A stretch of DNA of 49,321 nucleotides from Methylocystis sp. (GTDB lineage Bacteria > Pseudomonadota > Alphaproteobacteria > Rhizobiales > Beijerinckiaceae): positions 1 to 49,321 of the forward strand of contig JAMBEQ010000140.1 of the NCBI GenBank assembly GCA_024506175.1, written 5' to 3'. This document shows, one piece after another, positions 13,352-33,071 of the stretch. The number at the start of each line of letters is the position of its first letter. The first letter of the stretch is position 1. The notes beneath the pieces were generated by a model that saw only the letters and a list, made by a program, of their open reading frames with translations, made no database searches and was not told the origin of the DNA. Made by a program: the position numbers and the translations under genes.

Positions 13352-13392
13352 ATGCTCAGAAGGCTCGAAGAGGCCGTCTCGAAGCACGAGGG
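13352..13392. repeat. Degenerate copy of the palindromic repeat found in ileS
   Basis: Located in the 181-bp gap between two divergent genes. It shares the exact 15-mer GAGGCCGTCTCGAAG with the copy at 31160-31266 and is alignable on both sides of it (CTCGAA-GAGGCC... against CTCGAAAGAGGCC...). Confidence 0.6.
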
Positions 13393-29746: not shown

Positions 29747-32700
29747 ATGAACGACGACACGCCCAAAGGGCCCGACTATTCCAAGAGCCTCTATTTGCCG
29801 GCCACGGATTTTCCGATGCGCGCCGGCCTGCCGCAGCGCGAGCCGGAGCTGCTGAAGCGCTGGGAGGAAATCGGCCTTCAGGAGAAAATGCGTGAGGCCG
29901 CGAACGGCCGGCCGAAGTTCACGCTGCACGATGGCCCGCCCTACGCCAATGGCAATATCCATATCGGCCATGCGCTGAACAAGATCCTCAAGGATATCGT
30001 CACGCGCAGCCAGCGCATGACCGGCAAGGACTGCGTTTATGTGCCGGGCTGGGACTGCCACGGCCTGCCGATCGAATGGAAGATCGAGGAGGAAAACTAC
30101 CGCGCCAAGGGCAAGAAGAAGCCGGACTTCTCGCGCCCTGACGAGATGATCGCGTTTCGCCGCGAGTGCCGGGCCTATGCCGAGAATTGGCTCTCCATCC
30201 AGCGCGAGGAATTCAAGCGGCTGGGCGTCGCCGGCGAGTGGGAGCATCCCTATTCGACGATGGCGTATAACGCCGAGGCGATCATCGCCCGCGAGATCAT
30301 GAAATTCGCGGAGAACGGCCTTCTGTATCGCGGCTCCAAGCCGGTTATGTGGAGCGTGGTCGAGAAGACGGCCTTGGCCGAGGCGGAGGTCGAATACGAG
30401 GACCACTCCAGCGATACGGTGTGGGTCGCGTTTCCGATTCCAAGAGGCGCTGACGGCGATCTCGCCGACGCGCGCGTGGTGATCTGGACGACGACGCCCT
30501 GGACGCTGCCGGGCAACCGCGCGGTCTCGTTCTCCTCGAAAATCTCCTACGGACTCTATCAGGTCACCGAGGCGCCCGAAAACAATTGGGCCTTCCCGGG
30601 CGCCAAATTCATTCTCGCCGACAAACTCGCGCCGGAAGTCTTCAAGGCCGCCAAAGTGGAAGGCTTTGAGCGACTGCACGACGTGTCGGCCTCGGCGCTC
30701 TCGGAACTAATCTGCGCCCATCCGCTCGCGCATCTGGGCTATTCCTTCGACGTGCCGCTCTTCGACGGCGACCACGTCACCGACGACACGGGCACGGGCT
30801 TCGTGCATACCGCGCCGGGCCACGGCCGCGAGGACTTTGATATCTGGATGGCGAACGGCCGGCGTCTCGCCGAGTCCGGCATCGACAACCGCATCCCTTA
30901 TACGGTCGACGAAGACGGCTTCTACACCAAGGAGGCGCCGGGCTTCGAAGGCAAGCGCGTCCTCACCGAAAAGGGCGAGAAGGGCGACGCCAATGAGGCC
31001 GTGATGGCCGAGCTTATGAAGGCCGGCAATCTCATCGCGCGGGGCCGACTCAAGCACCAATATCCGCATTCCTGGCGCTCGAAAAAGCCGGTGATCTTCC
31101 GCAATACGCCGCAATGGTTCATTGCGATGGATAAGCCCTTCGCGTTTGTCGCTTCTCACTCGAAACCTCATCCTGAGGAGGCCTCGAAAGAGGCCGTCTC
31201 GAAGGACCAGGGTTCGGGAGCCGCATCCTTCGAGACGCGTGCTTCGCGCGCCCCGAAGGATGACGGGCGGAATTTGCCGACGCTGCGCGAAATCGCGCTG
31301 GAAGAAATCTCGCGCACGCAATGGACGCCGACGGCCGGCGAGAACCGCATCCGCGGCATGATCGGCAATCGCCCGGATTGGGTCGTCTCGCGCCAGCGCG
31401 CCTGGGGCGTGCCGATCGCCGTCTTTGTGAAAAAGGGCACGCATGAGATCCTCGTCGATTCGCGCGTGAACGCCCGCATCGTCGAGGCGTTCGAAAAGGA
31501 AGGCGCCGACGCCTGGTACGAGACGCGCGCCGCCGAACGCTTCCTCGCGCCCGATTATGATCCGAACGACTATGAGAAAGTCGCCGACGTTCTCGATGTC
31601 TGGTTCGACTCGGGCTCCACGCACGCCTTCGTGCTCGACGATCCCAAGAACTTCCCCGCCCTCGCAGGCATCCATCGCAAGCGCGATGGCGGCGACGATG
31701 AGGTCATGTATCTCGAAGGTTCGGACCAGCATCGCGGCTGGTTCCATTCCTCCCTTCTCGAAAGCTGCGGCACGCGCGGCCGCGCGCCTTACGACGCCGT
31801 GCTGACGCATGGCTTCGTGCTCGACGAGAAGGGACGCAAAATGTCGAAGTCGCTCGGCAATGTCGTCGCGCCGCAAAAGGTGATTGCGGATTCGGGCGCC
31901 GACATTCTGCGCCTCTGGGTCGCGGCCTCCGACTACGCCGACGATCTGCGCGTCGGCCCGGAGATTCTGAAAACCTTCGTCGATCTCTATCGCAAATTGC
32001 GCAACACGCTGCGCTGGATGATCGGGGCGCTCGCGCATTACGGCGCGGACGATGACGAAGCGCTCGACCATGCAAGCGAGCTCGAGCGGCTCATGCTGCA
32101 CAGGCTCGTCGAGATGGACGCGCAAATCCGCTCAGCCTATGCGGCCTATGATTACAAGCGCGTCGTGGCCTTGCTCACGCCCTTCATGACGAGCGACCTT
32201 TCGGCCTTCTATTTCGACATCCGCAAGGACGCGCTCTATTGCGAGCCGCCGTCGAGCGTGAAGCGCAAGGCGTCGCTTGCGGTGATCGAACGCATCTTCC
32301 GCTGCGTGACGACATGGCTCGCGCCGATCCTCGTCTTCACGGCGGAGGAGGCCTGGCTCGCTCGTTACCCGGACGCCGTCTCGGTTCATCTGGAAGACTT
32401 TCCCGACATTCCGTCCCATTGGCGGGACGAGGGGCTGGCCAAGAAGTGGGAGGGCGTGCGCGCCATTCGCTCTGTGGTGACGGGGGCGCTCGAAATCGAA
32501 CGCGCCCAAAAGCGCATCGGCTCCTCATTGGAGGCGGCGCCGATTGTCTATGTCGCCGACGGCAAGCTGCGGATGGATCTGGACGGCGTCGATTTCGCGG
32601 AAGTCTGCATCGTCTCGGACATCGTCATCGAAACCGGTGAGGGACCAACCGACGCCTTCCGCCTGCCGGAGGTAAAAGGCGTCGCCGTCGTTCCGAGCCG

Positions 32701-32836
32701 CGCGAGCGGGGTAAAATGCGCGCGCTCCTGGAAGTATTTCGACCCCGCCACGGTGGGCCCGGAGTATCCGGATGTGACGCCCCGCGACGCACAGGCGCTC
32801 AAGGAGCTGAAGGCGCTCGGGCGCTGGAGCGCGTAA
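29747..32836 (+). CDS. ileS: Isoleucyl-tRNA synthetase
   Basis: 1,029 residues, longer than the 940-1,000 usual for the family. Class I motifs: [16 protein letters not shown] (HIGH, about residues 64-79) and [10 protein letters not shown] (about 695-704). The CP1 editing domain carries [12 protein letters not shown] and [12 protein letters not shown] + EDF. The anticodon domain follows; the C-terminal zinc finger of the E. coli enzyme is degenerate (KCARSW without the later Cys pairs). Residues about 471-506 ([15 protein letters not shown]...) interrupt a conserved stretch between WFIAMDKP and [10 protein letters not shown] and are encoded by a palindromic repeat. The frame is preserved, so the enzyme is probably functional. 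Start ATG 29747. Confidence 0.97.
31160..31266. repeat. Palindromic repeat inserted in frame within ileS
   Basis: Three hairpin units are visible: CCTCA-TCC-TGAGG (31166-31178), GGCCTC-GAAA-GAGGCC (31180-31195) and ATCCTTCG...CGAAGGAT (31225-31261). It resembles the REP-type palindromes common in alphaproteobacterial genomes and adds about 35 codons without a stop. A related copy is at 13352-13392. Confidence 0.85.
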
Positions 32837-32890
32837 GCGAAGAAATGGAAGCGCGCGCGAACGACAATCTCGCTCGGTTGGCGCCCAATA

Positions 32891-33015
32891 CCTCCCCTTC
32901 ACGGGGAGGTCGGCGGTCGCAGACCGCCGGGTGGGGTCCGCGCCGCGATCACATTGGCTGGGCCATACCCCACCTGGCCCCACTTCGTGGGGCCACCCTC
33001 CCCGTGAAGGGGAGG
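32891..33015. repeat. Two-ended palindromic repeat element between ileS and the flippase gene
   Basis: Left end CCTCCCCTTCACGGGGAGG (32891-32909) and right end CCTCCCCGTGAAGGGGAGG (32997-33015) are exact reverse complements, and each is itself a hairpin. Inside each end is a second hairpin of different sequence (CGGCGGTC-GCA-GACCGCCG left, TGGCCCCACTTCGTGGGGCCA right), then GGTGGGG/CCCCACC facing inward. The 125-bp structure looks like a small non-autonomous repeat (RUP/MITE type). Confidence 0.85.
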
Positions 33016-33071
33016 GATTTGCTCACGCCGAGCGTCCGCCAAATCGGCTTGGGCTTGCGAGGGGTCTTTCA

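Follow-up and report, generated by a model that had tools for sequence, protein, structure and literature searches.

One loop of isoleucyl-tRNA synthetase (IleRS) holds several different kinds of palindromic repeats in different species of Methylocystis and other Hyphomicrobiales, the main point that an earlier, sequence-only reading of this DNA had missed. Sequence comparisons make it very probable that REP-like elements were repeatedly inserted at this one permissive loop, and that loop alleles have also been exchanged. In the proposed course of events, several families of REP-like palindromic elements would disperse in Methylocystis and other Hyphomicrobiales, mostly between genes. A single IleRS loop, just ahead of a helix of the catalytic core, would tolerate about 25-60 extra residues, which are probably disordered, and insertions that keep the frame at this loop would survive, so that it could be filled several times by different families. 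The loop alleles would then be exchanged by recombination and altered by deletion or tandem expansion. The window, that is, the whole stretch of 49,321 nucleotides of Methylocystis sp. that was analyzed, contains the following features:

29747-32836, forward strand: ileS, isoleucyl-tRNA synthetase, with a frame that is open through the insert (NCBIfam TIGR00392, 774 bits)
31133-31282, forward strand: the IleRS loop, from WFIAMD to LREIAL, 50 codons
31160-31266, forward strand: type A palindromic element, an inverted pair of units, in frame in ileS, 107 bases
31161-31216, forward strand: hairpin unit 1 of the type A element, from the fold
31221-31266, forward strand: hairpin unit 2 of the type A element, from the fold
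31151-31267, forward strand: stretch of lowest confidence in the AlphaFold model (pLDDT < 50), located between a strand and a helix and comprising IleRS residues 469-507 (numbered from 29747)
13352-13392, forward strand: degenerate single unit of the type A family, flanked by the genes of a pseudouridine synthase and a deaminase
32889-33018, no strand assigned: second repeat family, type B-like, three hairpins enclosed by a long outer stem (z -9.0 for 32880-33030)

The sequence-only reading had proposed a palindromic repeat at 31160-31266 that lies in frame within ileS and leaves the frame intact, and both the fold and the translation of 29747-32836 bear this out. The gene is intact, its product matches TIGR00392 (isoleucine-tRNA ligase) with 774 bits versus a cut-off of 621, and there is no stop codon in the ileS frame across the insert, which sits at WFIAMDKP^TLRE. 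Folding of the DNA, which had been suggested as a check, gave two hairpins and not the three that had been counted. The stretch 31160-31270 folds with a z of -4.5 as DNA and -4.1 as RNA, while the whole loop with its flanks reaches only -2.87, compared to a 1% point of -3.1 and a 5% point of -2.05 for 460 control windows. The degenerate relative claimed for the intergenic gap at 13352-13392 was confirmed by blastn (E 3.1e-4, 84%). Rfam had no match in the window at the gathering score. The type B-like element lies about 50 bases past the ileS stop, and in relatives such as L034 members of its family occupy the IleRS loop.

The inserted loop has 50 codons, versus 8 in the insert-less Methylocystis loci L051-L055. 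The genome (3.37 Mb) is assembled in 266 contigs, which might raise suspicion of an assembly or annotation artefact, but loop inserts in an open frame are also present in M. rosea SV97, M. silviterrae FS, M. suflitae NLS-7, Methylocapsa aurea KYG, and Rhodoplanes serenus DSM 18633, and the probability of an artefact is negligible.

The loops of 25 genus genomes, of loci from other families of the order, and of 80 named loci were read. This yielded 109 counted rows (L059 stands outside the counts), and after removal of five rows identical to others 104 distinct IleRS remained. Loops of at least 34 aa are present in 31 of these 104, all with repeat-type peptides, and 34 are typed as repeat-bearing at any loop length. 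Ten kinds, A to J, were assigned by peptide motif:

Kind A, PHPEEARSAVSKDE..FETRASHAPQDE: beyond Methylocystis in Methylosinus Sm6, Methylocapsa aurea, and L073
Kind B, LPLAGRSAAEGGRVG
Kind C, HPPLEGEGR
Kind D, ERVAPKATGE
Kind E, NSPPQGGRE
Kind F, TDEG..PHPNP: beyond Methylocystis in Boseaceae
Kind G, PQPSPTRG: a Bradyrhizobium MAG and L111
Kind H, VIPGR..RPGMT: two Rhodoplanes
Kind I, RPGEG: Pseudorhodoplanes and L100
Kind J, PGPSPQGGG: L081

The 32 Methylocystis rows contain kinds A to F; 23 of them are typed. Loops of 8-24 aa are found in the Methylocystis rows without a recognized repeat and in near relatives without an insert. Aligning this IleRS with those of relatives, the check recommended in the sequence-only reading, thus revealed that the extra residues are not simply common to relatives, many of which hold other repeats at this position. 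Clustering of the loops at the DNA level was discarded as a basis for the kinds; it merged types via shared flanks, via the chimeric loop L063, and via similar C-rich stems. Because the calls are based on motifs, kinds B and C have part of a unit in common, and the types could not be told apart by clustering of the DNA, the number of truly independent families may be nearer to 5 than to 10.

Seven of the kinds, A to D and F to H, were searched in the genomes of their hosts, and all seven are multicopy (matches on both strands and pieces are counted). Type B has 30 matches in G006 and 40 in G018, type C 27 in G004 and 24 in G021, type H 80 in G055 and 60 in G056, and type G 50 in G058 and 14 in G059. 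Type F has 64 matches in G057 and 46 in G146, and type D has 25 in G013 and a single one in G007, the loop of which is of another kind. Family H has 58, 30, and 22 matches in G057-G059, where the loop holds another kind, and none in G060; family F, too, is found outside its loop hosts, with 4 matches in G060. Since H is multicopy in genomes with a different loop kind, the families are widespread, and a match in the host alone is no proof of a recent insertion.

A single ancient insertion could also have diverged into every loop type, the view favored in print for RPE-4/6/7. It would agree with the high frequency of long loops in Methylocystis (22 of 32 rows have at least 34 aa), with flank pieces such as SQSN..RGN that are common to several type A alleles, and with the partial unit shared by types B and C. 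However, near relatives without an insert exist in Bradyrhizobium, Bosea, Pseudorhodoplanes, Methylosinus, and Rhodoplanes, and what fills the loop matches repeat families with many copies in the same host. Furthermore, a survey of evenly sampled alphaproteobacterial genomes detected an insert in none of 60 (59 from other families, one from the own family), and 49 of these 60 have the minimal spacing at the loop. In this survey 74 of 86 genomes were matched and 60 loop stretches were taken, with the own genome, five partial matches, and eight others left aside. A single origin is therefore very unlikely. Because one loop is filled by families with many copies in the respective hosts while it is empty in near relatives, a hotspot is favored for the IleRS of the Hyphomicrobiales. 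In insert-less Hyphomicrobiales the linker is often longer, up to 30 aa, and this may have made the loop permissive.

The loop is also the main internal insertion site of the protein. In an alignment of the 104 IleRS, insertions of at least 12 aa are confined to the loop, if the protein ends and another gap-rich stretch, near residues 222-231, where insertions reach 24 aa, are set aside. The ileS loci were searched for the type A and type B-like elements (E<=1e-4); 15 of the 109 loci have such an element in the loop, and none has one elsewhere in ileS. On an IleRS tree built with FastTree after exclusion of the loop, support for which is low in places, the loop kind has to change 26 times (15 times if the count is restricted to the 32 Methylocystis rows) and the presence of a long insert 14 times. 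Part of the 26 changes is allele exchange. The loop of L063 is a chimera with a left part of kind B and a right part of kind A, and L036 and L039 have unrelated loops (pN 0.45) between nearly identical flanks (pN 0-0.03). Neither a transposition event nor a species with both an empty and a filled site was found among the compared loci.

The AlphaFold model has a mean pLDDT of 80, its best structure matches are IleRS, and the solved IleRS 8c9e aligns on either side of the loop, where a single residue separates positions 415 and 417. The stretch around the insert is the part of lowest confidence and is probably disordered, although low pLDDT is weak evidence of disorder here, since residues 1-6, 65-73, 201-216, 441-451, 625-627, and 689-704 are also below 50. 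The pN/pS is 0.56 in the insert versus 0.14 in the rest of ileS for type B (six sequences), and 0.71 versus 0.13 for type C (four sequences), and thus the peptides of both types are weakly constrained. Two small type A sets gave 0.06 versus 0.12 and 0.59 versus 0.18. The pS is low in the insert, which could reflect constraint at the DNA level, but selection on the DNA is not claimed, because the effect is only partly local along the gene and the sites are few. The insert is presumably translated, and tolerance, not benefit, is the presumed cause of the loop inserts.

The opposite has also been considered, namely that the hairpin or the peptide is useful, e.g. by making the ribosome pause close to where the editing and catalytic parts meet, and that insertions were selected for. 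The recurrent use of the same site would fit, and so would the strong folds: 30 of 46 loops of at least 75 nt fold better than all 460 windows of the same length from the same genes. Among these 30 are four rows that were subsequently removed as duplicates, as well as L122, which has no repeat motif; the other 16 comprise the own loop with flanks, the typed loops L033, L035, L046, L070, L071, L073, L100, and L111, and loops without a motif. In the type B alignment four stem pairs are changed on both sides, all in L034, which means either the separate insertion of another family copy or kept pairing; because the former may apply, these paired changes need no selection. In addition, many relatives manage without an insert, the peptides of types B and C are weakly constrained, and loops both shrink and expand. 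Usefulness is thus quite unlikely. A broader version, in which the loop would be a docking site across the Hyphomicrobiales and capture would be favored, e.g. by an mRNA hairpin that tunes translation or folding near the editing-catalytic junction, is unlikely as well.

The search of the own genome for further copies of the type A element, also suggested earlier, was productive: at E<=10 it gave 92 matches, with both strands and separate pieces included in the count, which merge to about 40 places. Neither of the two findings named as refutations in the sequence-only reading therefore applies. The weakest matches are probably due to chance, and places may be missing because 40 of 54 candidates were scored. 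The question of how many copies lie in reading frames has been answered in part. At 23 of the 40 places at least one ORF of at least 100 aa extends at least 60 bases beyond both ends of the repeat, and one of these is ileS. From 13 of the other 22 places 13 ORFs were read and 10 of them were run against Pfam, and three matched families, i.e., dgt, carB, and uvrB. The repeat is interior in dgt, while in carB and uvrB it lies ahead of the recognizable domains. At least two of the 40 places, ileS and dgt, are therefore inside recognizable genes, a lower bound set by the 10 ORFs given to Pfam. The second host gene was located as follows:

L003 1501-1604, also L154-L170: dgt, second host gene of a type A-like repeat

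In dgt (dGTP triphosphohydrolase) a type A-related peptide is present in frame in one loop in 13 of the 22 same-genus loci that were read; the forms in L165 and L168-L170 are short, and L159 has a tandem expansion. The repeats before carB and uvrB (L007, L021) lie in an open frame that continues into the gene, and they are likely to be outside of the true protein. In relatives, two DNA-methyltransferase-like ORFs (L252, L253), the BREX PglX matches of which are below the curated cut-offs, have interior type A-like peptides, and L252 has another peptide further along that is presumably repeat-like as well. Among 24 paired copies of the own genome 55 of 144 frames are open, and insertion that keeps the frame is thus neither rare nor improbable. 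The idea that the repeat can spread as protein-coding sequence, put forward in the sequence-only reading, holds in a weaker form, with coding copies in ileS, in dgt, and in the two DNA-methyltransferase-like ORFs of relatives. However, with only two of the 40 places shown to be within recognizable genes, type A seems to be a largely intergenic repeat to which certain loops are tolerant.

Tolerance by the protein has to be weighed against a targeting of the loop DNA by the insertion machinery. The presence of different kinds at a single site would be expected with such targeting, and the own genome has a repeat also just downstream of ileS. But the majority of the copies is located elsewhere, the sequences of the elements differ, and neither the own genome nor 30 of the 39 genus genomes has a match to the Y1/RAYT transposases, so that targeting is quite unlikely. 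The Y1 transposase family (PF01797) as mobilizer has no match in the own genome; in the genus genomes it is found in 9 of 39 at E<=0.001 and in 8 of 39 above the cut-off. A mobilizing enzyme for these elements is presumed.

Several known systems offer themselves for comparison. REPINs, which are associated with RAYT transposases, are inverted pairs of short palindromes, and the type A element is likewise an inverted pair, but a REPIN/RAYT system was rejected because the own genome has no Y1_Tnp match. Inteins have a Hint splicing domain of well over 100 residues, and the loop of only 50 aa leaves no room for one. The CGTC REPs of alphaproteobacteria are described by Di Nocera (2013, PMC3733652) as dispersed paired palindromes that are mostly intergenic and have no dedicated transposase. 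Such a REP has an unpaired end of the CGTC type (with CCTC variants), a stem of 8-9 bp, a loop of 4-5 bases, and a CCA tail (PMC3733652, same text). The elements described here are also dispersed paired palindromes, mainly intergenic, and without a dedicated transposase as far as the PF01797 search extends. They differ from that description in that the ileS elements are larger, their stems are bulged, the CCA tail is absent, and one gene loop is affected in many genera; with hairpins of about 46-56 bases and longer, bulged stems, type A does not match the structure of a CGTC-tagged REP. The same text mentions intragenic REPs in several species, tRNA synthetases included, and two Xanthomonas recB genes hit by different REPs at about the same site (PMC3733652). 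The palindromes in the accessible part of another paper are CRISPR and oriC (PMC3794950).

The likeness to the Rickettsia palindromic elements (RPEs), noted before from the sequence, is supported by a palindromic repeat in frame, a housekeeping gene, and a loop. RPEs and the Wolbachia palindromic elements are, like the elements described here, palindromic repeats of about 100-150 bp in frame in housekeeping genes. Type A is a dispersed palindromic repeat of this size and is inserted in frame into existing genes (ileS and dgt), and by likeness of these features it would work as RPEs do; membership in the RPEs is not claimed. Segments encoded by RPEs typically lie in a solvent-exposed loop, and the model of this IleRS has a loop of low confidence at the insert. 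In contrast to RPEs, the ileS elements are GC-rich, they occur in methanotrophs and other Hyphomicrobiales, few of their copies are shown to be intragenic, and several multicopy families share one IleRS loop across genera. According to a paper on R. japonica, RPE-7 is present in the Rickettsia isoleucyl-tRNA synthetase, orthologs of one gene hold different RPE groups, and RPE positions are solvent-exposed (PMC3767692). The paper weighs a hotspot against one old, diverged insert and leans toward a common origin, with the hotspot "still not negligible" (PMC3767692).

Among the titles and abstract openings listed in literature searches, none concerned repeats in the IleRS of Methylocystis or Hyphomicrobiales. 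Intragenic REPs and the RPE-7 of Rickettsia ileS have already been published, and the multi-family hotspot is new. The published question of hotspot or single origin becomes testable in culturable bacteria, and the loops represent a natural series of lengths and sequences within an essential enzyme. They also look like an example of selfish DNA that turns into protein, which the IleRS loop seems to allow harmlessly.

Small-scale changes were also observed within the loops. In L036, L039, L040, L043-L045, L048, L049, and L064 the beginning of the loop occurs twice (such as FIAMDKSIASGFIAMDK), owing to a tandem duplication that spans about 11 codons and adjoins the repeat, and the coding loop of L033 contains the type A unit in three tandem copies.
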